IMG/VR virus record: IMGVR_UViG_3300041402_000582
Span: 1 to 36,616 of that record
Reading direction: 5' to 3' (one strand)
Origin: a virus
DNA length: 36,616 nt
The notes below the pieces were generated by a model. The model was not told the origin of the DNA. It did not search any database and saw only the letters and a list, made by a program, of their open reading frames with translations. Position numbers and translations under genes: made by a program. Positions 4,760 through 36,420 of the stretch are shown piece after piece. Each line of letters begins with the position of its first letter. Within the stretch, counting starts at the first letter, position 1.

Positions 4760-5431
4760 TCACTCCGAGATTACCGTCATATGCTCAGCTCTTTTGAGAA
4801 CCTGGTCCCAAAGTAGCTGATTCCACATAACACCACCAATGCCTTTAGAGGTATCAATAACCTCTGGTGCGTCCTCAAGTCCACCAAACTCATTCAGCGC
4901 TTCCCATACAATCAATGGATGGAAGCGTGCCGGTAGTTCGGGAACATCGGTATTGCCGCTTAGTAATTGGGGTTCTTTCTGGTACTCAAAGTCGCACGTG
5001 TAGTTAAGCACGGGGGTTGGATAAAAATGTAAGTCGCCATTCGGCTTTTGAGTGACCACTGATGGCCGCTCCGTCGGAATGGTTTGTAGTTGTCCAAAGG
5101 ACGCTTGGTACCGGTCCCAGTCAACATAAGAAATTTTGGTGCGATCACTAAGACCCAAAGAGGTCTCATAGATCATAAAAGTTTTAGTGTGAATCTTTTC
5201 AACACCGGTCAACGGGAAGTCTGTTGTGGCAGATAATACGGATAAGCCGTAAGCATCGACCCACATCCACTTCCAGTCTTTTTCATCAGTTTGAATGCGA
5301 AGCCAGGCATCGCGGACAGCATCAACAAGGCGACCGAGAATTCCGGTCTGTGATACAACGGTTGTTGGTCCTGTACCGGAGATGCCCGACTTAGTTCGGA
5401 CCTCTTGGCAAATTGTCAAGAAATCACTCAT
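4760..5431 (-). CDS. SU10-type head-tail adaptor protein
   Basis: The 223-residue protein starts MSDFLTICQEVRTKSGISGT, continues with TTVVSQTGILGRLVDAV and then a Trp-rich DAWLRIQTDEKDWKWMW. These are recognisable features of the phage SU10 adaptor family, which sits under the portal and joins head to tail. The C-terminal half (PELPARFHPLIVWEALNEFG) also fits this family. Its position between the capsid block and the nozzle-like gene agrees. It ends 4 nt before the nozzle-like gene starts. Confidence 0.8.
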   Translation of the reverse strand: MSDFLTICQEVRTKSGISGTGPTTVVSQTGILGRLVDAVRDAWLRIQTDEKDWKWMWVDAYGLSVLSATTDFPLTGVEKIHTKTFMIYETSLGLSDRTKISYVDWDRYQASFGQLQTIPTERPSVVTQKPNGDLHFYPTPVLNYTCDFEYQKEPQLLSGNTDVPELPARFHPLIVWEALNEFGGLEDAPEVIDTSKGIGGVMWNQLLWDQVLKRAEHMTVISE

Positions 5432-6106: not shown

Positions 6107-6478
6107 TTAAGACCATTCGATTGTAACAGTTACATTGCCAACACCGGCAGTAGAGCCGCCACCATTGCTAATAGCAAACTTAGTGTCTGCTGGGATTCTG
6201 TTACCAGAAGCACCAGCTGCCACCACGTTACCCGTTACCGCGTCAGCCGCCGCAATAGCTACTGGAGCCGTTGCGTATGCGTCAAGATCGCCACCAGAAA
6301 TACCGACATTGATGCTTGAAGCTGCGACAGTGACGTCAGTAGTAACTAACGCGACAATACTCGTTACACGACCAGTTAAGCCTTTAGGACCAGCTAATAC
6401 CAAGTCCTCTGCAGCAGCACCAGTGAAATCCATACCAACGATAGTATGGGACGTTTGAATACCGTTTGAATAACTCAT
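6107..6478 (-). CDS. Probable capsid decoration or minor head protein
   Basis: The 123-residue protein is rich in Ala, Gly, Val and Thr and alternates short hydrophobic strands, as small all-beta virion proteins do. It lies 13 nt downstream of the major capsid gene, a common place for decoration proteins, and has a strong ribosome-binding site (AAGGAG). The name is inferred from position and composition; no family motif was recognised. Confidence 0.6.
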   Translation of the reverse strand: MSYSNGIQTSHTIVGMDFTGAAAEDLVLAGPKGLTGRVTSIVALVTTDVTVAASSINVGISGGDLDAYATAPVAIAAADAVTGNVVAAGASGNRIPADTKFAISNGGGSTAGVGNVTVTIEWS

Positions 6479-6491
6479 AGAAACTAACTCC

Positions 6492-7439
6492 TTAAGCTAC
6501 TGAAGACCATTCGACAATGCGAGCATCGTCAGCTTGATCATGAACCAGCGAGAAGCCTTCTTCGGCATACCAGGCAACACCTTTATCACGACCGAAGTCG
6601 CCAGGTAATTTGCCTCGAATTTCCGGAGGACAAACGATTGCTTCGATAACAGTATCTTCACCGAAGAAAAACGCCTGATCAGAAAGACCACCAGACCAAC
6701 CTTGGTTGGCAATAGAGGTATGCTCAAAAAAGCGAATACCTTCGTATGAACGACCCACTTCACCATTAAGGATCATCTGGAAGCCTTCACCAACATACGA
6801 GTGAACAGCTTCTAAGTCGTTTTTAAATCCACGGAAAGTCTTAGGACGACCAATACAGCGGTAGTTACCATCAGAATAAACCGGGATGTTACGCTCTTTC
6901 ATTTCGTCAGAAATAAGTTTCACGTGTACGTCATTCATCGCTAACGCATTTGTTTGCGGTGAAGTGCCGTTTGTAGCTAAATCGATTGCTGTTGCGCTGT
7001 TACCTGATGCTGGAGTTACCTTCAGCGGTGTCAATGCAAACTGCGCGTGCGCTTCGATCTCGAATGCTTTAGTAGCATCGTTCTTAAGTGCTTTCTGGAT
7101 GATCTGCTTCACCGGGTGAGCTGACGCGTCATCTAATCGACCAGAGTAAGGAACAGAGTTACCGAACTCATAAATCACACCACTACCTTGAGTAATCGTG
7201 TAACCAGTTTCAGGCATACGTTGGTTTTCCGCTAAGCGTCCACCTTGTGTGCCTACATCAGAATAGACGTTCCACTGGAATGCTTCACCAGCGTGTAAGC
7301 CTTTGTCTGTAAAATCGTCCGCATCGCAATGCTGGACGAAGCGTGTCATTGGCTGAAGTTCATTTCGTAGCGTAGTACTTAACTCGCCCGAATACATGAA
7401 TCCGCCAGCCGTATTGGTTTCCCATACTTGACCTGACAT
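6492..7439 (-). CDS. Major capsid protein
   Basis: The 315-residue protein has the length and look of an HK97-fold capsid protein without a protease domain. An extended N-terminal region (RNELQPMTRFVQHCDADDF) is followed by a mixed core, including YRCIGRPKTFRGFKNDLEA and GRSYEGIRFFEHT, which resemble peripheral-domain segments of podovirus capsid proteins. It follows the scaffold gene and carries a strong ribosome-binding site (AGGAG, 9 nt from ATG), as expected for the most abundant virion protein. Confidence 0.85.
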   Translation of the reverse strand: MSGQVWETNTAGGFMYSGELSTTLRNELQPMTRFVQHCDADDFTDKGLHAGEAFQWNVYSDVGTQGGRLAENQRMPETGYTITQGSGVIYEFGNSVPYSGRLDDASAHPVKQIIQKALKNDATKAFEIEAHAQFALTPLKVTPASGNSATAIDLATNGTSPQTNALAMNDVHVKLISDEMKERNIPVYSDGNYRCIGRPKTFRGFKNDLEAVHSYVGEGFQMILNGEVGRSYEGIRFFEHTSIANQGWSGGLSDQAFFFGEDTVIEAIVCPPEIRGKLPGDFGRDKGVAWYAEEGFSLVHDQADDARIVEWSSVA

Positions 7440-8611: not shown

Positions 8612-8914
8612 TTAGCTTTCTTCTTCTGCTTCTTCGTTTTCTATTTTCACCAGCATCTGACGCCCTGAATTAAGAGCCTCTTCTAGCCAGGTCAGATAAT
8701 TTTTTGCAACTGCAATATCATTTCTGAGTTCACGGTTGGTCTTTGCGTCTTCGGGATCAGCAACAATTAGTTTGGCTGTTGCCTGCTCGATCTCAACATT
8801 GGCCCTGTCTTCCAGATAATGCCCAAGCGATGAGTGTTTGAAGTTCTCAATTTCAATACCCAGTTTAGCAATGCGTATATCGTATTCGCGTTGTGTGACT
8901 TCTTCTGCTGGCAT
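8612..8914 (-). CDS. Small coiled-coil protein between portal and scaffold
   Basis: The 100-residue protein is predicted to be mostly helical and charged, with heptad-like stretches (YDIRIAKLGIEIENFKHSS and VEIEQATAKLIVADPEDAK) and an acidic tail (NEEAEEES). Its start overlaps the stop of the portal gene by one base, so it is probably coupled. An assembly or chaperone role is possible but unproven. Confidence 0.65.
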   Translation of the reverse strand: MPAEEVTQREYDIRIAKLGIEIENFKHSSLGHYLEDRANVEIEQATAKLIVADPEDAKTNRELRNDIAVAKNYLTWLEEALNSGRQMLVKIENEEAEEES

Positions 8915-11037
8915 TAGATACCGCTCCCCGTTCTAAGTTTGACGTTGAATTCATCGACCTTGTTCTGGCGGTCGGTGGTTAACTTCTCGCGTTCAAGTTT
9001 TAGCTGCTCCATAGTAATGGTTTTTTCTTCAGCCATTTTATACAGCGTTTCTTCTCGTTTCATAAACGCCATCTCAGTAGCGTGCTGCCTGGTCATATTA
9101 CCGTCTTCTATCTTGTCTTGGTGCATCTGATACTCTTGATCCAATTTGGCGCGATCAAGGTCAGATAACGGCTCTGCTTGTGGTTCTTGTGGCTTGGCCT
9201 CAGGATCTACTGGTGGGAAGAATCGCTCGGCATTGGCATAACCTAATGCACCAAAGATCTCGTTTAATACCTCTTCACCATCTAATCTAGCCGCAATACT
9301 TGGTACAAAGTTCATCACGGTGCCGAGTCCTAATGAAAGCTTATCGATACGCTGTTTTGGATTAGTGGCGCCAAAACCAACATTAACAGACAGGTTCATC
9401 GTGCCCTGAATCCATGCATCGGTGACATCACTGATACCGTACTGTTGATATAACTCAAGCTTTTCGCCCATCAGCTCCAGCAAGGCCTTATTGGTCTCGT
9501 GTCGCTGCTCTAAACGAAGTAATTGCTTAAGCACCGGTTCAACCCATGTCTTAACAAAAACAAGCATTGGATACTCGGTGAGCTCATCTGCATCTCTGGT
9601 CAATGCATCCATACCGCCAACCGTTTCATTCAGCTTGCGATTCGAGTTAACAGATCCACTGCTGAAATGACCCGTGAGCTCATCAAAATCATTATTGATA
9701 CGATCCTGCTCTTCATAGGACGAAGCTGTTACATCTGGCGGAGCCTCGACACGAATATCATTCTTGATGTCATCCATCTCAGTGACACCGCCGGGCACGT
9801 TACGTTGAAGTGAACCATAGTCAATCATTGCAGACCGGCGCACGAAGTAACGGCGATTCATAGCCAGATTCACATTATCGCGACGCTGATTATTGATCTC
9901 ATTGGCTTCTTGTTGGGACCCAGAGCTCATACCCGTTAATGACTCAGGATAAACTTTGTGTGTCTCAATATTGTTGATACCAATAACGTAAGGACGTTCG
10001 CCTGGTTGTAGATGTGGGTATTCTTCTTCAAGTGGTACCGGATCAGATAATCTGGCATGAATGCCTAACGTGTAATAGATCCAATCACGACCGTCTTTAC
10101 GGATAATATTGCGATGCACCCATACAGTTTGGAAGCCGCTTGTTGTATATCGCTGGTCCTTTGAGTCTTCACGATTACCCTCACGGGCTTGGCGCACAGC
10201 ATCATAGTCAGTCGTCACACCTGTTAGCAGTTGTGCGTCCGTTAAATCAAACCACGGGATCTTCGAGGTCCTGCTGGGCTCAGCCATCTTCTTAACTTCA
10301 TCGACAGTCATTGCTATTTTATCGATCAAGAAAGGCGATGTTTGAACCGGATCTCTCCAGTCAGCTGATGGTGAAAATAATACGTTCTCGATGGGCCTTA
10401 GTTCAACTGCTGGCGTATCCTTTAGAATTTTAAAGGCGTTATTCATTACTGGTTGGCCATCATCATCCATCTCTGGCTCACCTGATTCGCCATTTACCAT
10501 TGGTGTGCTATTGGACTGCTCTTGATAATCCCAAAATTGATGACTGATACAGACACCGGCAACACTGGCATCCTGATACGCGCCCATAGCTGTTAAAAAC
10601 CACGGGATAGTGTTGGTGAGTCGATACTGTAATAATTCTTGATTGATGTCTGCACTGACTTTGTGTGATTTGTCCTTGCCTCGCTCTGCTGCTACATGCA
10701 CAACATCTGCAGTGGAGAACAAAGCGCGTGCCAGTGCTGCTTCCTTCTTGCGCAACATAGAGCGGGTTTTGGGCCTAAAGCCTTTGTGTCTGTGCTTAAA
10801 GGTGGCCTTGAAGTACTTAGAGCCTGGCGCATGTTTGTTTTGGAAGTGAGCAAGGTTACGTTCGATACCGCTCCGAATATTTGAATCAAAATAGCTGCTT
10901 GATTCTGTAAAAGCATCTCTGGCTATCTGAAGCCAATAGTCTTGATTAAGAGACCCGCTTTCATTATCTGGGGATACATCTTCTGCGTGCGGATCATTGC
11001 GGTTACTCGTAGCGTCATGCATTTGGTTACTCGGCAT
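8914..11037 (-). CDS. Portal protein
   Basis: The 707-residue protein has the size, composition and position of a podovirus portal. Recognisable parts are the N-terminal RPKTRSMLRKKEAALARALF, the central YVIGINNIETHKVYPESLTG, and ELTGHFSSGSVNSNRKLNE with the following ETVGGMDALTRDADELTEY. The C-terminal 110 residues are a long charged helix, as in the barrel of large portals. It lies downstream of the large terminase and its start overlaps the preceding 122-residue gene by 11 nt. Confidence 0.85.
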   Translation of the reverse strand: MPSNQMHDATSNRNDPHAEDVSPDNESGSLNQDYWLQIARDAFTESSSYFDSNIRSGIERNLAHFQNKHAPGSKYFKATFKHRHKGFRPKTRSMLRKKEAALARALFSTADVVHVAAERGKDKSHKVSADINQELLQYRLTNTIPWFLTAMGAYQDASVAGVCISHQFWDYQEQSNSTPMVNGESGEPEMDDDGQPVMNNAFKILKDTPAVELRPIENVLFSPSADWRDPVQTSPFLIDKIAMTVDEVKKMAEPSRTSKIPWFDLTDAQLLTGVTTDYDAVRQAREGNREDSKDQRYTTSGFQTVWVHRNIIRKDGRDWIYYTLGIHARLSDPVPLEEEYPHLQPGERPYVIGINNIETHKVYPESLTGMSSGSQQEANEINNQRRDNVNLAMNRRYFVRRSAMIDYGSLQRNVPGGVTEMDDIKNDIRVEAPPDVTASSYEEQDRINNDFDELTGHFSSGSVNSNRKLNETVGGMDALTRDADELTEYPMLVFVKTWVEPVLKQLLRLEQRHETNKALLELMGEKLELYQQYGISDVTDAWIQGTMNLSVNVGFGATNPKQRIDKLSLGLGTVMNFVPSIAARLDGEEVLNEIFGALGYANAERFFPPVDPEAKPQEPQAEPLSDLDRAKLDQEYQMHQDKIEDGNMTRQHATEMAFMKREETLYKMAEEKTITMEQLKLEREKLTTDRQNKVDEFNVKLRTGSGI

Positions 11038-11395
11038 CGTAGATCGCCTCGCCCTTGTTGTTATATTTCATATCGGCCATTTGTTGACGTAGATCAACCG
11101 CGTGGTCTCTGGCTATTCTGAAGCGCTCTAATAGTTCACCAGCAGCGTTTCTGACCTTCTTGCCAGCTGCATCCAATGACGCAATGTGCAACAAGAAACC
11201 CATATTGCCAGATAACAACCGGTTCTTCATTTGGATAACGCCGCCATTCGTATCGATTGACAGTAGCCATGTGCCATCGAGATGAGGATAAGCTTTGTGC
11301 AACGTAATCATTATGTTGTCATGTAATAGCTTAACGGACGCAGGTGCCACGTTTCCATTGTCATCAACCAGGGTCTGATTAATTTGGGTTGTCAT
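11027..11395 (-). CDS. Hypothetical protein between terminase and portal
   Basis: The 122-residue protein starts MTTQINQTLVDDNG. This start was chosen because GGAG lies 8 nt upstream; an in-frame start at 11461 would extend through a separate overlapping gene. The C-terminal half is charged and helical (LLERFRIARDHAVDLRQQMA). Such proteins often sit beside the portal gene, but I do not recognise the family. It overlaps the 50-residue gene at its 5' end and the portal gene at its 3' end. Confidence 0.65.
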   Translation of the reverse strand: MTTQINQTLVDDNGNVAPASVKLLHDNIMITLHKAYPHLDGTWLLSIDTNGGVIQMKNRLLSGNMGFLLHIASLDAAGKKVRNAAGELLERFRIARDHAVDLRQQMADMKYNNKGEAIYDAE

Positions 11396-11531
11396 TGTAA
11401 ACTCCAGCATTATCAGTTTCTTTGAAAGTCTTCTTACTGAATTCGTAAGCATCGTGCTCAACTATTTCATCGGCATCGAGCTCTTCTGCGTCATTCACTA
11501 AGACTGTGTATTCAATTTTTCGGGTAGCCAT
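11379..11531 (-). CDS. 50-residue acidic protein overlapping terminase and the next gene
   Basis: A short frame starts at 11531, where its ATG shares a base with the TGA stop of the large terminase (TGATG). It encodes 50 residues, starts MATRKIEYTVLVNDAEELDA, and is rich in Asp and Glu. It ends 17 nt inside the following gene, past that gene's ribosome-binding site. Overlaps on both sides and coding-like composition support a real coupled gene. No function is recognised. Confidence 0.6.
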   Translation of the reverse strand: MATRKIEYTVLVNDAEELDADEIVEHDAYEFSKKTFKETDNAGVYNDNPN

Positions 11532-12991
11532 CAGTAGTCTCCGTCGTGAGTTGGATCAAGAGAACGCCCACCACCTATGCGAACAGGAGGCGTATTAAAG
11601 GCAAAAGTGAGTGCAACTGCGTCTCCGCAATCAGGACTAGATAAGCCGCGCTTTTTCATATCCGCTTTCTTCTCGAGCACGATCTTGTGCTTGCTGTCGT
11701 AGGTGCACTTAATGGTTGTTAGATCGTCAATCAGCTCTGTATCATCTGGTATGTCGGCGGTAGGTAACCACTCTTTCATTCTATACCACATCTCTGCACG
11801 TTTGTTAAACACTACATCTACATTCTCTGGGTCTGGCCGGCTACCAGATAACACTTCAATAACCTGGTGGCCAAGCTGTCTGCATCGATCCACAACACCG
11901 GCACCCAGGCCAACACCATCAATCATCACCACGTCAATGTTGTTTTCCCGGATCTCTTGGACTACCCGTGCAGCGACCTGCATGGTGTCAAGACCACGAT
12001 ATTTGATTAATGGCTCAACCTTGCGGCCATGGCGACGACAGAAAACCGTTTGATCTGAACCAAAGCGAGCGACATCCACACCCAGTATCTTCGGTGTGCC
12101 AAGAGGGACATCAATGTGCCGCGCTCCAGCCTCTTCTGCTACTTCGGTGGATATGAACTGCTCATCACCCATACGCGGGAATACGCCGCGAATACGAATA
12201 CGAACATAATCTGAATCTTCGCCGTGCTCTTCAACCTCTGCATTAAGCTCTTTCTGGTTGGGCATTTTGCAATTACGGCTATCTACCTGCCTATGGGTCC
12301 ATCTGTGTTTCAATCGACCAAAGCACTGCCTGAAGCGCCCACTGTTCTGAGTAGGGTTACCAAAGACAAACCACATTGTTCGGGGATCTTTTACACCACT
12401 GGAGACTTCCCATATTGAGTCGGGAATAATACTGGCTTCATCATAGATGATTAACGTGTGCTCTCCGTGCTGGCCAGCGAAAGCCTGGGAGTTGTGTTCG
12501 CTGTTGGCAATACAGGCGACGTACCATGTTTCGGGGTTATCAATCTGGAAGAATTTTGTTTCGGTCCACGTGAACCAGTGTGCATTAATGGCTCTCTTAT
12601 GCCATAAAGCCAGCTCTCGCCATGTTGTGGTTTTAAGCTGCGGGAATGTGTTGGCTGTTACCTTGCCGTTTAGGTTCTTTCTGGTGCTCATTGCCCAGAG
12701 GATTATCCACGACACCTCTGCACTCTTACCGATACCGTGTCCCGAGGCTGTGGCGTCCTGCAATAGATCCAGTGGCGTGTTACGAACGTGAGCGGCAATA
12801 CTGAGTAATTGATCAATCTGCCAGTCATCAGGACCCGTCTGATCTTCTAAATCTGTGCCGGGCTCTCCCCACGGAAAGACATACATGACAAACCCAAGCG
12901 GATCGTCATAGAACTCGCCAATCTTATCGACCAGCGCCAGCTCATCATCTAGGTTACTCGCTAACTGCACTTGGTCTCCACTTAGTATCAT
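11531..12991 (-). CDS. terL: Terminase large subunit
   Basis: The 486-residue DNA-packaging motor has both expected domains. The ATPase domain has a Walker A-type loop at residues 83-90 (SGHGIGKS) and a Walker B segment HTLIIYDEAS with D184 and E185. The C-terminal RNase H-like nuclease domain has KILGVDVARFGSD with D306, VVMIDGVGLGAGVV with D358, and GDAVALTF near residue 456. The gene starts inside the zinc-ribbon gene and has no strong ribosome-binding site, which fits translational coupling. The small subunit gene lies separately at 14688-15332, with the small cassette-like genes between them. Confidence 0.93.
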   Translation of the reverse strand: MILSGDQVQLASNLDDELALVDKIGEFYDDPLGFVMYVFPWGEPGTDLEDQTGPDDWQIDQLLSIAAHVRNTPLDLLQDATASGHGIGKSAEVSWIILWAMSTRKNLNGKVTANTFPQLKTTTWRELALWHKRAINAHWFTWTETKFFQIDNPETWYVACIANSEHNSQAFAGQHGEHTLIIYDEASIIPDSIWEVSSGVKDPRTMWFVFGNPTQNSGRFRQCFGRLKHRWTHRQVDSRNCKMPNQKELNAEVEEHGEDSDYVRIRIRGVFPRMGDEQFISTEVAEEAGARHIDVPLGTPKILGVDVARFGSDQTVFCRRHGRKVEPLIKYRGLDTMQVAARVVQEIRENNIDVVMIDGVGLGAGVVDRCRQLGHQVIEVLSGSRPDPENVDVVFNKRAEMWYRMKEWLPTADIPDDTELIDDLTTIKCTYDSKHKIVLEKKADMKKRGLSSPDCGDAVALTFAFNTPPVRIGGGRSLDPTHDGDY

Positions 12992-13127
12992 CGAGAGTAA
13001 TCATCTTTCTACAGTCCACGCAAGCGACACGTCGCGGCTTCTGTTGGTCACTGGGGAATTTCAACAACGAATTCTTGCCGCACCAGTTGCAGTGAACCGA
13101 TATCTCATCTGTGTTCGTAATCGCCAC
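12954..13127 (-). CDS. Com-like zinc-ribbon protein, GTG start
   Basis: A GTG at 13127 follows a good site (AGAGG, 6 nt spacing) and opens a 57-residue frame. Two CxxC pairs, CNWC at residues 13-16 and CVDC at 36-39, form a zinc-ribbon pattern like that of Mu Com-type phage proteins. The frame overlaps the terminase start by 38 nt. By analogy with Com it could regulate translation or bind nucleic acid; the CxxC pairs are seen, the role is inferred. It is the first gene to the left of the cassette-like array. Confidence 0.7.
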   Translation of the reverse strand: MAITNTDEISVHCNWCGKNSLLKFPSDQQKPRRVACVDCRKMITLDDTKWRPSAVSE

Positions 13128-13179: not shown

Positions 13180-13186
13180 GTTATGT
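13180..13186 (+). other. Single GTTRRRY-like core site at left end of cassette array
   Basis: GTTATGT matches the form of an integron crossover core at most positions and begins one base before the stop codon of the 85-residue gene (its TAA is the complement of 13181-13183). No paired left half was found nearby, so this could be a simple attI-like core or the remains of an attC site. The call depends on its alignment with the three better sites to the right. Confidence 0.35.
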
Positions 13187-13438
13187 GTATCCGCGCATCA
13201 TCATTTGCTTTTCACATTCATCAACTAATTCTTGGGAAACAAGATTAATTGGTAGCGCGTCATTAGAGTGTCCGTCTGAAATAACCAGCCACAGATTCTT
13301 TTTTAATGTCACGGTTAAGTCGCCGTATTCAAATTTACAAATATATCCAAAAGGTATTCGTAACCAAACCCACATAACAAAACGCTTAACTACGCTCGCT
13401 TTACTCGCAGGATTCGTCTCTACACTCACTTTGTTCAT
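13181..13438 (-). CDS. Cassette gene 1: 85-residue hypothetical protein
   Basis: The first start is the ATG at 13438, after AGGAGAGG. From there residues 1-21 are encoded by the attC-like site itself. A second ATG at 13375 lies inside the site's left core and would give MWVWLRIPFGYICKFEYG. The protein is small with no recognised domain; the central part looks like short beta strands (LTVTLKKNLWLVIS). The stop falls exactly at the GTTAT core at 13180. The minus-strand frame is preferred over the plus frame because of its ribosome-binding site and its fit to the phage operon. Confidence 0.6.
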   Translation of the reverse strand: MNKVSVETNPASKASVVKRFVMWVWLRIPFGYICKFEYGDLTVTLKKNLWLVISDGHSNDALPINLVSQELVDECEKQMMMRGYT

Positions 13439-13470
13439 TTCGTTCCTCTCCTGTTAGCTGGGTCGTTATA
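13372..13470 (+). repeat. attC-like recombination site C
   Basis: On the plus strand the order is ACATAAC (13372-13378), a 5-nt spacer, GCTTAAC (13384-13390), a central region, GTTAGC (13453-13458), a 6-nt spacer and GTTATA (13465-13470). The outer boxes pair with each other and the inner boxes pair with one extra base (T) in the left inner box. Paired R and L boxes, 5- and 6-nt spacers and an extrahelical base in the left arm are the defining design of integron attC sites. The length is about 98 bp, within the known range. Confidence 0.7.
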
Positions 13471-13471
13471 T

Positions 13472-13741
13472 TTACTTTTTATTACTTCTAACATGGTTAA
13501 TAACCGAAAGAGCTTGAGCAATTACGCTCATCTGATCAGCAAGATCAATCTCATCATAATGAGACATTTCATCTATTTCTGCATTTTTAAAGCAAAAGGT
13601 ATATTTGTCTCTTTCTAGTTTTCGCCTTGTTCCGTCATTTTCGCCACAGCAAACAAATGAACCCCCGCAATCGCTAACTACACGCGCATAAGCTTCACAA
13701 TCTACTTCTCCCCTAATACAGTCGCCCTGCATCTGAATCAC
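13472..13741 (-). CDS. Cassette gene 2: Cys-rich hypothetical protein, GTG start
   Basis: I place the start at GTG 13741 because GGAGG lies 5 nt upstream; an upstream TTG overlaps that site and is unlikely. The 89-residue protein is acidic and has six cysteines in its first 65 residues (including VCCGENDG). It could bind metal or form disulfides, but no family is recognised. It lies between attC-like sites C and A, with its stop 7 nt inside the cassette boundary at 13465. Confidence 0.6.
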   Translation of the reverse strand: MIQMQGDCIRGEVDCEAYARVVSDCGGSFVCCGENDGTRRKLERDKYTFCFKNAEIDEMSHYDEIDLADQMSVIAQALSVINHVRSNKK

Positions 13742-13755
13742 AATAACCTCCAAAA

Positions 13756-13815
13756 TATAACAAATCGTTCAAGAACCGACACTAAAAAGCAGCGCGACTT
13801 AACTTTGCCGTTATA
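13756..13815 (+). repeat. attC-like recombination site A (best match)
   Basis: The 60-bp site has TATAAC, spacer AAATC, GTTCAAG, a central region, CTTAAC, spacer TTTGCC and GTTATA. The inner boxes GTTCAAG and CTTAAC pair with one extra C in the left arm, as in the aadA1 attC site, which I recall has the same inner boxes and the same 5- and 6-nt spacers. The stop codon of cassette gene 3 is the complement of TTA at 13811-13813, right at the predicted G/TT crossover. This is the clearest attC in the window. Confidence 0.78.
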
Positions 13816-13993
13816 AACCCAATTCCTGCATAGCTTCTGCAGTAAGGCATATCTCTGCTGTCTCATCATCTCCAATACCCACAAGAGAGCTGAACCATTC
13901 TCCGTGCCTTTGTGTTTTTGTTGGAGCAGGCTGGAATTGGTTTCTGCTAATTAATTCAGCTAGCAACTGTGTGTCCGAATAATCTTTAAGCAT
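13811..13993 (-). CDS. Cassette gene 3: 60-residue hypothetical protein
   Basis: The start is the ATG at 13993, with GGGAG 8 nt upstream; an ATG at 14008 overlaps that site and is less likely. The N-terminus MLKDYSDTQLLAELISRNQ resembles a type of small helical protein often seen in phages of gammaproteobacteria. No function is known to me. The gene fills the space between attC-like sites A and B and stops exactly at the site A crossover. Confidence 0.65.
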   Translation of the reverse strand: MLKDYSDTQLLAELISRNQFQPAPTKTQRHGEWFSSLVGIGDDETAEICLTAEAMQELGL

Positions 13994-14009
13994 TTTATAA
14001 TCTCCCATT

Positions 14010-14075
14010 TATAACAATTAGCTCCAGCAGATTCACTCGCTGGCGCTCGTTCTCGGCTGAGCATCGTTCGTTATG
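14010..14075 (+). repeat. attC-like recombination site B
   Basis: TATAAC, spacer AATTA, GCTCCAGC, a central region, GCTGAGC, a 7-nt spacer and GTTATG. The inner boxes pair with one extra C in the left arm, the same polarity as sites A and C. The outer boxes pair with one G-T wobble. The 66-bp length is typical of attC. The stop of cassette gene 4 is the complement of TTA at 14071-14073, at the crossover position. Confidence 0.7.
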
Positions 14076-14241
14076 TGTTCACCTTTGCTTTAAATAAACC
14101 AAATTTACTATTCTTCATCCACTTAACTCCATAAGCGTCTCTATAATAAAAAACACTTTCGCCGGTCACTATGTCAGTGAAAGCAAAACCATCATAGGTC
14201 ATCGGTGTTAACCACATAACAAATTGTTTAAACCATTTCAT
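14071..14241 (-). CDS. Cassette gene 4: 56-residue hypothetical protein
   Basis: A start at ATG 14241 gives MKWFKQFVMWLTPMTYDGFA; an alternative ATG at 14217 lies inside the core of the degenerate site, exactly as in cassette gene 1. The frame stays open upstream to 14409, but that part overlaps another gene. The body (TYDGFAFTDIVTGESVFYY) looks like short beta strands. No family is recognised. It ends at the crossover of attC-like site B. Confidence 0.5.
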   Translation of the reverse strand: MKWFKQFVMWLTPMTYDGFAFTDIVTGESVFYYRDAYGVKWMKNSKFGLFKAKVNT

Positions 14242-14269
14242 TTCGCTATTTAAACCTCTTCCGTTGTTT
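14214..14269 (+). repeat. Degenerate attC-like site D
   Basis: ACATAAC, spacer AAATT, GTTTAAAC, then TTTAAAC, a 7-nt spacer and GTTGTTT. The left half is a good attC left half and is nearly the same as that of site C. The right core departs from GTTRRRY and the inner boxes are nearly palindromic, so the extra-base test is ambiguous. It overlaps the 3' end of the neighbouring 77-residue gene. It may be the worn or hybrid right edge of the array. Confidence 0.4.
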
Positions 14270-14479: not shown

Positions 14480-14688
14480 CACGCGGCTCCTATGTGTCGA
14501 AGCCATCTACCATTACCCCACTCCTCAAGAGCAAGCTTGCCGAAATCACTAATAGAGTCAGATTTTTGTGAATATAAAGACATCCCAGCTCTCCAGGTGT
14601 AACTACCAACACTTACCGTCATTACAAAATTCGTTGAACAACCATAATCAAACGGCTCCAGTGTGATTTTTTTAATGAACTCTGCCAT
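14479..14688 (-). CDS. Hypothetical 69-residue protein coupled to small terminase
   Basis: The ATG at 14688 overlaps the TGA stop of the small terminase gene (TGATG). The product MAEFIKKITLEPFDYGCS continues as a small mixed protein with several aromatic residues. No domain is recognised. Stop-start overlaps on both sides argue that it is a real gene co-expressed with the terminase. Confidence 0.65.
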   Translation of the reverse strand: MAEFIKKITLEPFDYGCSTNFVMTVSVGSYTWRAGMSLYSQKSDSISDFGKLALEEWGNGRWLRHIGAA

Positions 14689-15332
14689 CACTTTTGGCTC
14701 CTTTTCGCCGCAGCCTCTTCAACTGCTTTCTGTCGCCTGGCCATTAAGGTCCCGAGATCCACTTCGCCACTAAGTTCTAATTTTTCTTTGAATGCCTGAA
14801 CGGCCTCATGCTTACCGATAGTATCCAGTGCCTTACCAACACCAGCTGCATTGAATTGCCTGGCGTGCGCCTTAACAACAGTACGTTGGCCATCTTCACC
14901 AATAAGAACGAGATCATTAGGAATATCTCTCTCACCCATACACATTTCTAAGTATTCAACTGATTTGGTAAGCACATAAGCCGCATTGATATCAGTAGCC
15001 TCTTCAACCTTTTTGAGCTTAGCCTGGAGATATACCTGCACCTCAGACTTTCTCATTAGCTTCTCTGCGCCGGTCTCACATGATCTTTGTTGTGCTTTGG
15101 GGTGGAGGTCTCGATAGCATGCTGTCGCATTACCTATGAGGTGATCAGGCCCACCTAACCAGTTATTAATAAAGATCTTATCCTTATCAGATATCTTCTT
15201 AGGCTTACGTGCTGCGGGCTTCTTGGTTGTTTTCTTCTTGATTGCTTTCTTCTTGGAGGGAGTTTTCTTCTTAACTGGCGTGCGCACTCTGGGTGCTGCT
15301 TTCTTTTTAGTTGTTTTTTTCTTGTCTGTCAT
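14688..15332 (-). CDS. terS: Terminase small subunit with histone H1-like Lys-rich N-terminal tail
   Basis: Residues 50-130 match the Terminase_2 pattern: DKDKIFINNWLGGPDHLIGN, ATACYRDLHPKAQQRSCE and a helix ending VQVYLQAKLKKV. This subunit recognises the packaging site and hands DNA to the large subunit. The first 48 residues are a Lys/Thr/Ala/Pro tail (TKKKAAPRVRTPVKKKTPSK), like histone H1 tails, and are absent from typical small terminases. I chose ATG 15332; GTG 15335 is also possible. It is separated from the large subunit gene by about 1.7 kb that holds the cassette array. Confidence 0.8.
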   Translation of the reverse strand: MTDKKKTTKKKAAPRVRTPVKKKTPSKKKAIKKKTTKKPAARKPKKISDKDKIFINNWLGGPDHLIGNATACYRDLHPKAQQRSCETGAEKLMRKSEVQVYLQAKLKKVEEATDINAAYVLTKSVEYLEMCMGERDIPNDLVLIGEDGQRTVVKAHARQFNAAGVGKALDTIGKHEAVQAFKEKLELSGEVDLGTLMARRQKAVEEAAAKRSQK

Positions 15333-15377
15333 CACAGTCGCCTAATCATATATTGGGTATAGGGAAGTTATGCACAG

Positions 15378-15575: not shown

Positions 15576-15809
15576 CTATCTCTTGCAGCCTATCTCCCAT
15601 ATAGACTCCGGTATCCTGGATGTCTCATCGTAAATGACAAGGCCTGGTATCTCGTAATAACCGTCTTTATGGGGCGCACCATTCATATCACTAAAGGGTG
15701 CCTCTGGCTCCGGCTCTGATGTACACGCCGCAGCCTTGCTAATTACTGGTATCGCTGCGATAGCGGCATACGCCTTGAGTCCTAATAATAAAAATTTACG
15801 TCTGTTCAT
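15576..15809 (-). CDS. Small exported protein with Tat-like signal and terminase-like segment
   Basis: The 77-residue product begins MNRRKFLLLGLKAYAAIA, a twin-arginine-like n-region and hydrophobic core, followed by SKAAAC, a possible lipobox or cleavage site. The C-terminal segment VIYDETSRIPESIWEI matches 11 of 16 residues of the Walker B region of this phage's own large terminase (IIYDEASIIPDSIWEV). The gene overlaps the PP-loop gene by ATGA. Its function is unknown; the mixture of an export signal and an ATPase-like scrap is odd and may mark a gene fusion or remnant. Confidence 0.6.
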   Translation of the reverse strand: MNRRKFLLLGLKAYAAIAAIPVISKAAACTSEPEPEAPFSDMNGAPHKDGYYEIPGLVIYDETSRIPESIWEIGCKR

Positions 15810-16549
15810 AATCCACATCCAAACGGTGAGCCGCAGCCCTCATCTTCAAGAGGATCAAGAAATCCTCCGCGTTTACGTCCGTGCTTTGCCCAAACCATCA
15901 CTCCATAAATACCTATAGCCCCGAATCGTTTTGGTCTAAACATTGGTTTGCCAATTTCAACTTCTAACTCATTAACCATCTCAATTTGGTCTTGAGTCAG
16001 CAGCATAAAATCACCTCGATTTGCATTGACACATGGAGAGCACTCCTGACTCCGATGAGATAGTAACTCCATACAAGTGCGCTTGACCAATTCATCCCTT
16101 TGTTCGTCGGTATGCTTAAATAATGGATGCCAAACAGTTCGTCCGCCGTGATACTCGCTACTTTCAACAAACTCTTTGGTGTCAGCTCTCGCTTTGCTTT
16201 CTGCACGCCTTTTGCCAATCAAAACAATCGCTTTATTATCAGGATCAACATCATCAATCCATTGAAGAAAAGGAATGCCCTTTAAGTGTCCAGTACAAAA
16301 CTGCTGCGCGTTTCCCGGCCATCCTTTTTTTATTCTGATTAGCTCAGCCATACCCATGCTTTCAACCCTAACTGTCTTGAATCCATACTCCTTTGCCAGT
16401 TTCTCGCCTTCTTTTATACGCTTTTCCCAGCAAGGCGCTGCCCAGCCAGTATCGCAATAAACAGTAGTTACATCTTCCAGGCCTTCTTCATGCGCATACT
16501 GAATCAATGCAATCGAGTCATTGCCGTAACTAGTGCTAATTACATTCAT
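15806..16549 (-). CDS. PAPS reductase-like PP-loop (adenine nucleotide alpha-hydrolase) protein
   Basis: The 247-residue protein has a PP-loop at residues 7-12 (SYGNDS), in the place of the SGGxDS loop that binds ATP pyrophosphate. It also has CTGHLKG, and a Cys cluster HRSQECSPCVNANRGDF as in phage members of the phosphoadenosine phosphosulfate reductase family. Such phage proteins may act in sulfur metabolism or in nucleic-acid thiolation, as DndC-type enzymes do. The exact substrate cannot be read from the sequence. It overlaps the upstream gene by ATGA. Confidence 0.8.
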   Translation of the reverse strand: MNVISTSYGNDSIALIQYAHEEGLEDVTTVYCDTGWAAPCWEKRIKEGEKLAKEYGFKTVRVESMGMAELIRIKKGWPGNAQQFCTGHLKGIPFLQWIDDVDPDNKAIVLIGKRRAESKARADTKEFVESSEYHGGRTVWHPLFKHTDEQRDELVKRTCMELLSHRSQECSPCVNANRGDFMLLTQDQIEMVNELEVEIGKPMFRPKRFGAIGIYGVMVWAKHGRKRGGFLDPLEDEGCGSPFGCGL

Positions 16550-17237: not shown

Positions 17238-17825
17238 TTACGCTACATTACCAAAAGTTAATATCTTTGCCTTCATGCTTAATTCACTTAACTCATTTCG
17301 TTTTCGCTGATCTCTCAGTATTTCTTTTGCTCTTGGTTGTTGAGCCTGTCTTATTTTTTCAAGTAATTCGGGTACGTCTTCCGGTATTACAATTAATTCT
17401 TCCGGTTGCTGATCTTCTTTTGTATGGGGATCAAAAGTAACCAATTCGCCATTAGGTCTAACTAATCCAACGGAAACCGATTCAATCGAATAAGCCATTT
17501 CCATCTGCACATGAAATCTGTTTCTAACTTCGCTACCCAAAACAATCACAGATTTACCACCAATAAGCCTAGACGGATCAAATGAACCCCTGTAATGCAG
17601 ATCCATTAATTCACCCTCATCAACCTCTCGACAGTACCCAACTGCTCCACAATGCGAGTTTTTAAACACAAGCTGACTCCTATAAGCATCGGCATGACGA
17701 ATCATTTGAAACACCCACCCACCTATCGACATCCTGCGAATATCAGACCTCATCCCCGCCCATTCAATTTCAATGGACGGGTGCAGTAAGTTTTCCAGAT
17801 TGTTATAGCTCTGCGCCAATCTCAT
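17238..17825 (-). CDS. Hypothetical protein, phage accessory
   Basis: The 195-residue protein has no motif I can name. Its N-terminal half is mixed (MRLAQSYNNLENLLHPS) and the C-terminal 50 residues are basic and helical (LLEKIRQAQQPRAKEILRD). It overlaps the coiled-coil gene upstream by 23 nt, so the two are probably coupled. Many gammaproteobacterial phages have unknown genes of this kind in the middle region. Confidence 0.65.
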   Translation of the reverse strand: MRLAQSYNNLENLLHPSIEIEWAGMRSDIRRMSIGGWVFQMIRHADAYRSQLVFKNSHCGAVGYCREVDEGELMDLHYRGSFDPSRLIGGKSVIVLGSEVRNRFHVQMEMAYSIESVSVGLVRPNGELVTFDPHTKEDQQPEELIVIPEDVPELLEKIRQAQQPRAKEILRDQRKRNELSELSMKAKILTFGNVA

Positions 17826-17991
17826 GCTCCAATTCTTCTAGTTCGCGTTCAAGATTAGCTAATATGATTTTTGCAGCATCAATCTGCTGTAATTTTGTCT
17901 TAAGCTGCCCACTCGCTTTTTTTATCTTTTCTTCACGAATGTCTTGCTCTGCTTTTTTACGTGCTGCTGCTACATCGAATTTCTCTACCAT
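17803..17991 (-). CDS. Small coiled-coil protein
   Basis: The 62-residue protein is nearly all charged helix with heptad spacing (KTKLQQIDAAKIILANLERE). Its ATG lies 2 nt after the stop of the -1 frame of the preceding gene, which helps to fix that gene's reading frame. It overlaps the downstream 195-residue gene. Confidence 0.65.
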   Translation of the reverse strand: MVEKFDVAAARKKAEQDIREEKIKKASGQLKTKLQQIDAAKIILANLERELEELEHEIGAEL

Positions 17992-17993
17992 GA

Positions 17994-18148
17994 TTATTTA
18001 CTCTCTCTGTTAATGTTGATTAAACGAAAGCGCCATGGAAACCAATGCTTTTTAGCCTTGATCCTGGCTTTCTCTTTTTTTACTGCTTCTTCAAACTGCT
18101 CAATGGCTATTTCCCACTTAGCTTGTTTTTTACGTCTTCAATATTCAT
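17994..18148 (-). CDS. Small phage protein requiring -1 frameshift at A AAA AAC
   Basis: The ATG at 18148 opens a frame that stops after 13 codons, but the -1 frame has no start of its own and is open up to a TAA placed 2 nt before the next gene's ATG. The zero frame reads GTA AAA AAC, so the seven bases at 18125-18131 form a canonical slippery heptamer. Slipping there joins MNIEDVKN to QAKWEIAIEQFEEAVKK and gives a 51-residue product. The -1 part, with a helical WEIAIEQFEEAV and aromatic HWFPWRF, looks like a small phage protein. A loss of one A in the run by mutation or sequencing error would look the same. Confidence 0.6.
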
Positions 18149-18149
18149 C

Positions 18150-18389
18150 TCAACCCTTATTAAAAAACGCCTTAAGTTTTGACTTAATGCCGGTGGATGC
18201 GGAGTGCTTTGCTGCCTGCTCGGTGAGCTCTTCAATCTCTGCCGGTGCAAGTACGTGCAATATCTTGGTTCTCTGCGCATTCACAACACTGACAAGCTTC
18301 ACGCCTGATTTACAACGCTTATCTTTCTTGTAGCCGACTGTTACCGGGAATGGCCTATGCTTACCCATTTTGGTTTTGAAGGTATTCAT
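18150..18389 (-). CDS. Small basic hypothetical protein
   Basis: The 79-residue Lys-rich protein (MNTFKTKMGKHRPFPVTVGY) has a good ribosome-binding site (AGGGG, 5 nt). No family is recognised; basic composition could mean nucleic-acid binding. It lies between the peptide deformylase gene and the frameshift gene and ends 1 nt before the latter's ATG. Confidence 0.6.
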   Translation of the reverse strand: MNTFKTKMGKHRPFPVTVGYKKDKRCKSGVKLVSVVNAQRTKILHVLAPAEIEELTEQAAKHSASTGIKSKLKAFFNKG

Positions 18390-18397
18390 CGTGGCCC

Positions 18398-18823
18398 CTA
18401 TATCAAAATACCGTCGAGATGATCTATTTCGTGTTGTATTAGCCTAGCTTCAAAGGATTTGAACAGCTCCTGCACCAGATCGCCTTCTTCGTTGATGTAC
18501 TGAATTCTAACTTTAAACCATCTTTTGACTCGCCTCGGCACCGTCATGGTTATTGGTACAGAAAAACACCCCTCATTACCAAGGGAAAACTTACCTTTAA
18601 AATCTAGTACTATTGGGTTCACCATAATGGTTCTCTGGCCCTGCACATGGACCAATATAATTCTTTTCTGGTGACCTACTTGTGGTGCCGCCAGCCCAGC
18701 GCAATTATGCAGTGTTGCCGCAGTGTCCTTCAGGTCCTGAATAACCTCAATATCATCGTAATAGGCCCTGTCGCATATAGCCCCTAAAACACCCCTATCT
18801 GTCACTATTGGCTTAACACTCAT
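18398..18823 (-). CDS. def: Peptide deformylase
   Basis: All three signature motifs are present: GLAAPQVG at residues 43-50, EGCFSVP with the metal-binding Cys at residue 86, and HEIDH at residues 131-135 with the two His ligands and catalytic Glu. At 141 residues it is shorter than bacterial enzymes (about 165-170), missing the C-terminal helix, as seen in phage deformylases. It would remove the formyl group from nascent proteins and may support high translation of phage proteins. The ribosome-binding site is GGGGA. Confidence 0.92.
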   Translation of the reverse strand: MSVKPIVTDRGVLGAICDRAYYDDIEVIQDLKDTAATLHNCAGLAAPQVGHQKRIILVHVQGQRTIMVNPIVLDFKGKFSLGNEGCFSVPITMTVPRRVKRWFKVRIQYINEEGDLVQELFKSFEARLIQHEIDHLDGILI

Positions 18824-35589: not shown

Positions 35590-36420
35590 GTGAACGATAA
35601 AACAAAAGTAAATTACAAAGTAGAGAGTGAAGTCGATGCTATAGAAACACAGTCGGCAGGCGCTATTCAGTCTATCCCGGAACATCAAATGCCGCAGCAA
35701 TCACAATCTGTGCATCCGTCCGCGTTAATTAATGCGTACATGGCGAAACCGGATGTCGACATCGAGAAACTAGAGCAGCTATTTGAATTGCAAACCAAGT
35801 ATGAAGCGCACGAAGCTAAGAAATCATTCAATCGCGCTATGGCTCGATTCCGTGAGATATGTCCTGCTATTAAGAACGATAAGCGCGTTAATTTTGAAGC
35901 TAAAAATGGCGGGGCTGCAACTGATTATCGTTATGCTGGTTTGGCGGCAACGATTGAAACTGTCAAGAGCGCTATGGCTGAGTGCGGCTTATCTCACTCG
36001 TGGCGCCCGGTACAAAAAGATGATCAACTCCATGTGACCTGCTATATCACTCATGCGCTTGGACACAGCATCGAAGCAACGATGAGCTCAGGTCGTGATA
36101 CATCGGGTAACAAAAATAACATTCAGGCGCTCAAATCAACCAAGAGCTATCTTGAGAGAATGACATTTCAAGCATTGCTTGGGCTTGCGACTGATAGTGA
36201 TGATGATGATGGTCGTGGGTCTGAAGCAGAAATACAACCACCAGCGCCACTGGTTAGCAGAGACCAGGCAGCTAATCTTCAGGCGTTACATGACGAAGTG
36301 GGTGGTGACACTTCACCTATCTTGAATTTCTTCAAAGCCAGCGATTGGTCGGGTATTCCGGCAGAGTCTTATCATGCTGTTGTGCAAAAACTTGAGGCCC
36401 GCCGTAATGCCGATAATTAG
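35590..36420 (+). CDS. erf: ERF family ssDNA-annealing recombinase
   Basis: A GTG start at 35590 has AGGAG 7 nt upstream. The 276-residue protein matches ERF: KSFNRAMARFREICPAIKND, FEAKNGGAATDYRYAGLA and IQALKSTKSYLERMTFQALL. ERF proteins bind single-stranded DNA and catalyse annealing during phage recombination. A run of Asp (TDSDDDDGRG) follows the core. It pairs with the exonuclease gene that overlaps its 3' end by 14 nt. Confidence 0.9.
   Translation: MNDKTKVNYKVESEVDAIETQSAGAIQSIPEHQMPQQSQSVHPSALINAYMAKPDVDIEKLEQLFELQTKYEAHEAKKSFNRAMARFREICPAIKNDKRVNFEAKNGGAATDYRYAGLAATIETVKSAMAECGLSHSWRPVQKDDQLHVTCYITHALGHSIEATMSSGRDTSGNKNNIQALKSTKSYLERMTFQALLGLATDSDDDDGRGSEAEIQPPAPLVSRDQAANLQALHDEVGGDTSPILNFFKASDWSGIPAESYHAVVQKLEARRNADN

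Follow-up and report, generated by a model that had tools for sequence, protein, structure and literature searches.

In integrons, a gene and its attC site point in the same direction, so that the integron promoter reads the gene. What, then, is an array of attC sites doing between the two terminase genes of a phage, with its ORFs running opposite to the sites? The window, i.e., the whole stretch of DNA analyzed, covers the 36,616 bases of an IMG/VR virus record, which is classed as linear and may be incomplete. Approximately 1.7 kb separate the genes of the small (TerS) and large (TerL) terminase subunits, and this interval contains small ORFs and the attC array (Table 1).

An attC array between terminase genes

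The sites were searched for with a covariance model (CM) of 29 diverse bacterial attC sites, none of them from the studied record, under a hand-written structure. Training sites came from 31 genome stretches retrieved via a site-B-derived pattern (mostly Rhodanobacter, other Xanthomonadales and gammaproteobacterial MAGs) and from class 1 plasmids. Across the entire window, on both strands and with filters off, the CM matched exactly sites B, A and C, the next best match scoring 10.2 bits. Among the controls, class 1 cassettes scored 18-72 bits and TJE1 and H101, two phages with published CALINs, 18-30 bits, while P12002L gave no CM match. Wrong-strand calls were ruled out, as no opposite-strand match appeared at the three sites with filters off and up to an E-value of 10. 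A second, structural scan, run at its strictest setting, returned sites A and B and nothing else in the record; shuffled windows averaged 1.45 matches, so the scan alone is weak. An Rfam scan of the record gave no match, and REP/MITE hairpins were set aside, in our judgement, on the attC-type box anatomy.

Table 1. Features of the terminase region and its attC array (window coordinates).
Feature	Position	Strand	Basis and remarks
Portal gene	8914-11037	-	
Terminase large subunit (TerL)	11531..12991	-	phrog_2, E 2e-38
Small Cys-rich ORF just upstream of TerL	12954..13127	-	By eye from sequence
Terminal R' box GTTATGT, array left end	13180..13186	+	Sequence; G^TTRRRY-type box; abuts ORF A stop codon
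ORF A, 85 aa	13181..13438	-	ORF list; starts inside attC site A; stop codon adjoins R' at 13180
Inferred cassette A (R' crossover to R' crossover)	13181..13465	+	Inferred from G^TT positions
attC site A	13372..13471	+	CM 25.2 bits, E 2e-4; GCTTAAC/GTTAGC, bulged T
Inferred cassette B	13466..13810	+	Inferred from G^TT positions
ORF B, 89 aa, phage protein family	13472..13741	-	GTG start behind GGAGG; tblastn
attC site B	13755..13816	+	CM 35.0 bits, E 7e-7; aadA1-like L boxes GTTCAAG/CTTAAC, bulged C
Inferred cassette C	13811..14070	+	Inferred from G^TT positions
ORF C, 60 aa	13811..13993	-	RBS GGGAG; stop codon adjoins attC site B R'; ORF list and sequence
attC site C	14009..14076	+	CM 24.1 bits, E 5e-4; L boxes GCTCCAGC/GCTGAGC, bulged C
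ORF D, 56 aa	14071..14241	-	Starts inside site D; stop codon adjoins attC site C R'; ORF list and sequence
Inferred cassette D	14071..14263	+	Rests on degenerate site D
Putative degenerate attC site D	14214..14269	+	Left arm is a repeat of site A (85% over 20 nt); below CM reporting limit
Terminase small subunit (TerS)	14688..15335	-	phrog_51, E 4e-16

In all three sites the boxes pair, the left arm has one additional base, and the spacers measure 5 and 6-7 nt, as the first-pass annotation had described at these positions. It had likened site A to aadA1, a likeness that belongs to site B. The geometry of site B is that of many bacterial attC sites; its exact pattern was absent among viral contigs, and a consensus attC query against named phages returned only two class 1-like cases. 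By box anatomy and the CM, A, B and C are assigned as attC sites, recombination at them being putative. As DNA, their bottom strands fold weakly (-2.8, -2.8 and -5.7 kcal/mol, versus -7.7 to -22 kcal/mol for bacterial sites), the weakest of all those tested, and at site C the attC fold costs 5 kcal/mol over the best fold. The sites may be partly decayed, or long or coding loops may lower the folding score.

The three CM-found sites fall inside 710 bp, where a CALIN has at least two close attC sites, and neither an integron integrase (IntI) nor a PF00589 tyrosine integrase was found in the 36.6 kb record, which may be incomplete. The element is thus one without an integron integrase, i.e., a CALIN rather than a complete integron, and the insert probably consists of three, possibly four, integron gene cassettes. 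The first-pass annotation had proposed just such an integrase-less cluster of small cassettes between two terminase genes, and in these respects it stands. It had also known of no described case, whereas Qi et al. 2023 (PMC9892861) report 17 phage CALINs; moreover it missed the opposite polarity of ORFs and attC sites. Therefore the array is a phage CALIN of an already reported kind; what is new, as far as open-licence literature goes, is its polarity.

The nearest named TerL proteins include those of epsilon15 and its relatives (40-48% identity), and the record is an epsilon15-like podovirus. TerS and TerL are adjacent, with no insert, in two relatives (L004 and L005), in line with the first-pass annotation, and a third (L002) has ~0.6 kb with other ORFs between them. 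Only one of the 80 TerL relatives (L014) carries attC above threshold. No near-identical phage was present in the phage collection, nor did any close relative turn up in which a gain or loss at the record's own locus could have been seen. In L014/L177, a methyltransferase and an HTH ORF are inverse to two attC sites, and a third site has an ASCH-like ORF, likewise inverse, on one side and a toxin-antitoxin-like pair in canonical orientation on the other (gene names by eye); in L014 this pair, in canonical attC orientation, occupies 6346-7027, upstream of the terminase genes.

Among the genes of the insert, ORFs A, C and D belong to no Pfam or PHROG family and have no tblastn match among named phages, plasmids or collected loci; ORF D also has no viral contig match. 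A small ORF similar by eye to the Cys-rich ORF upstream of TerL lies upstream of TerL in L003, and tblastn found no counterpart of the Cys-rich ORF. Elsewhere in the record, a PAPS reductase domain protein (15806-16549) adjoins the terminase genes, and an Erf-like single-strand annealing protein (35590-36420) could matter for recombination.

Polarity of attC sites and ORFs

All sites are oriented along the + strand, opposite to the ORFs and the late operon on the - strand. Their + strand has AACAA... on the left and ...CGTTAT on the right, and the bulged base sits in the left arm, as it does in aadA1. For ORFs A, C and D a TAA stop codon adjoins the G^TT crossover point, and the stop of ORF B is 6 nt away. 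On the - strand, site A contains the beginning of ORF A, from its RBS through the start codon to the first codons; as polarity assigns site A to the cassette of ORF A, sequence and polarity agree. The array shares with class 1 and chromosomal integron cassettes the attC boxes, bulged base, spacers and R' box (G^TTRRRY). In those integrons, however, gene and attC run in the same direction beside an integrase with a promoter, while in the record all three sites are inverse to the ORFs and no integrase is present.

Bacterial and viral arrays were surveyed for this relation. The longest ORF between neighboring attC sites was sense in 137, antisense in three and ambiguous in 16 bacterial cases, versus 42, 59 and 47, respectively, in viral sample 1. 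Counting ORFs that stop in the R box gave 104 canonical and five inverse in bacteria, versus 52 canonical and 97 inverse sites (eight versus 33 contigs) in viral sample 1. Without the one contig carrying a complete intI, seven canonical versus 33 inverse contigs remained (p 2e-5), while sites of at least 40 bits only gave 10 versus 19 contigs, which was not significant (p 0.07). Viral sample 2, drawn with two other attC patterns and collected separately, gave 35 canonical and 124 inverse sites by the same count (five versus 42 contigs, 11 ties; p 1e-8), related contigs in both samples being not fully independent after removal of the nearest duplicates. A strand test by GC3 minus GC2 in GC-rich loci yielded canonical-to-inverse ratios of 13:1 in bacteria (a small control), 9:39 in sample 1 and 6:111 in sample 2.

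Both viral samples are contigs called viral by IMG/VR. Of the 47 records of sample 1, the one checked for a terminase, 13 carry the gene; contigs with a terminase, counted together with isolated phages, gave two canonical versus 13 inverse. Moreover, attC polarity switches within L263, L232 and L215 while staying mostly inverse to the local ORFs. Inverse polarity is therefore the common state in viral contigs (~100 checked) and rare in bacterial arrays.

The phage CALINs of Qi et al. (PMC9892861) resemble the present array as attC arrays without integrase in phages, with small cassette genes, and differ in that the sections available to us do not describe an opposition of attC and ORF. H101, presented there with the direction most typical of bacterial arrays, and MW202573, another previously reported phage, are both inverse by the depositors' gene calls. 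Neither in those sections nor elsewhere in the open-licence literature searched was inverse polarity found to be reported as a rule, and earlier reports outside that literature are possible.

Movement of attC-to-attC units

In other phages, gains and losses the size of one cassette are established. Two loci ~99.8% identical (L221 and L245) differ by one 381-bp attC-to-attC unit, which carries a 92-aa inverse ORF; its junction fits R', but also fits homologous recombination between similar attC sites. Another pair (L202 and L234) differs by one ~353 bp unit between dissimilar attC sites, with the crossover within nine bases at the R'' box. As this lies on the R'' side and not at R', it is not predicted by bottom-strand IntI action. 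In L202 (4700-4830) a gene start codon lies within an attC loop, as with ORF A of the record.

The family of ORF B offers a third comparison. Its homologues (tblastn) occur in Pseudoalteromonas phage H6/1, two Brevundimonas phages and four viral contigs. L086 and L087 have the gene-B unit in common (98% over 444 bp); at one end the R' box of the attC that follows marks where divergence sets in, and at the other homology starts ~16 bp beyond an attC.

Complete IntI was found in one of the 47 records of viral sample 1, where the array is canonical, and in one of the 50 records of sample 2 (G435); a PF00589 recombinase was present in nine of 50 inverse-array records. With IntI this rare, most arrays would depend on an integrase supplied in trans, although the records may be incomplete. 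In G435 (L257/L258) intI (17558-18496) lies beside the attC array, two of whose four sites were called inverse and two undecided. In G452 (L259) an integron integrase at 10745-11096 lies near an attC array; of the profile, just the first 95 positions and the last 30 match it.

Origin and meaning of the inverse polarity

The most probable reading, in our view, is that the array consists of "inverse cassettes", i.e., integron cassettes in a variant adapted to phages, which lie between the terminase genes of an epsilon15-like podovirus and are probably recombined by a host integrase in trans. The mobile unit would be one attC plus the gene after it in the direction of phage transcription, with i) the attC bottom strand, which the integron integrase folds and cuts, as the coding strand; ii) the R' crossovers at or beside the stop codon of the upstream gene; iii) cassettes gained, lost and swapped by the host integron integrase acting in trans; and iv) expression from phage late transcription instead of an integron promoter. 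We infer the use of host IntI because the phage encodes no integrase.

A different account holds that the hairpins are former attC sites that now act in the phage as intergenic RNA elements (hairpins in 5' UTRs, sites of processing or weak terminators), to which recombination is irrelevant. The weak DNA folds of the record's sites, the start of ORF A within site A and the fixed polarity relative to transcription all fit it. Yet the features that an integrase needs (R boxes with GTT, bulged base and spacers) are kept, near-identical phages differ by entire attC-to-attC units, and IntI1 recombines phage attC sites, the bottom strands of H101 attC sites included, as Qi et al. 2023 (PMC9892861) report; we therefore regard this account as unlikely. 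The inverse polarity could also come from single hairpins flipped in place inside ordinary cassettes, with no special cassette type. L086 indeed holds the same attC hairpin as exact reverse complements (2711-2767 and 5329-5385) with identical 40-nt right flanks, both copies preceding the same gene start, i.e., a flipped hairpin. It is the one clear in-place flip among ~430 sites, however, and random flips predict mixed arrays, yet only two of the 61 loci of viral sample 2 are mixed; in both of these, as in L263, most sites remain inverse to their ORFs. Flipping in place is thus an improbable source of the pattern, more so than a conversion to RNA elements.

Least probable of all, and close to negligible, is that a piece of an ordinary host chromosomal integron was copied into the phage, its polarity being coincidental in this array. 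The attC types do match gammaproteobacterial integrons, but inverse ORFs are nearly absent from bacterial arrays, which makes three or four in a row unlikely. Moreover the gene-B family occurs in phages and was not found in a sample of 369 genomes from the class to which the Marinobacter genome belongs, a weak negative with no positive control genome.

Returning to inverse cassettes moved by a host integrase, why should this polarity prevail? Our guess is that the coding strand is more often single-stranded, as lagging-strand template or displaced by transcription, so that inverse sites would recombine more. This would fit the reported rise in excision on inversion of the V. cholerae integron (PMC11023631). 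There the attC bottom strand lies on the lagging-strand template; on the other hand, that was a laboratory inversion of the whole array, with the usual relation of gene to attC.

A large set of phage arrays that uniformly breaks the orientation rule suggests that phages put the same sites to another use. Tentatively, and with the odds slightly against it, phages may keep their own pool of inverse cassettes, matched to phage transcription, shuffled via host integron integrases and forming a branch separate from the bacterial pool. If so, phages would be a distinct home for cassettes, which would bear on how small phage genes of unknown function move.
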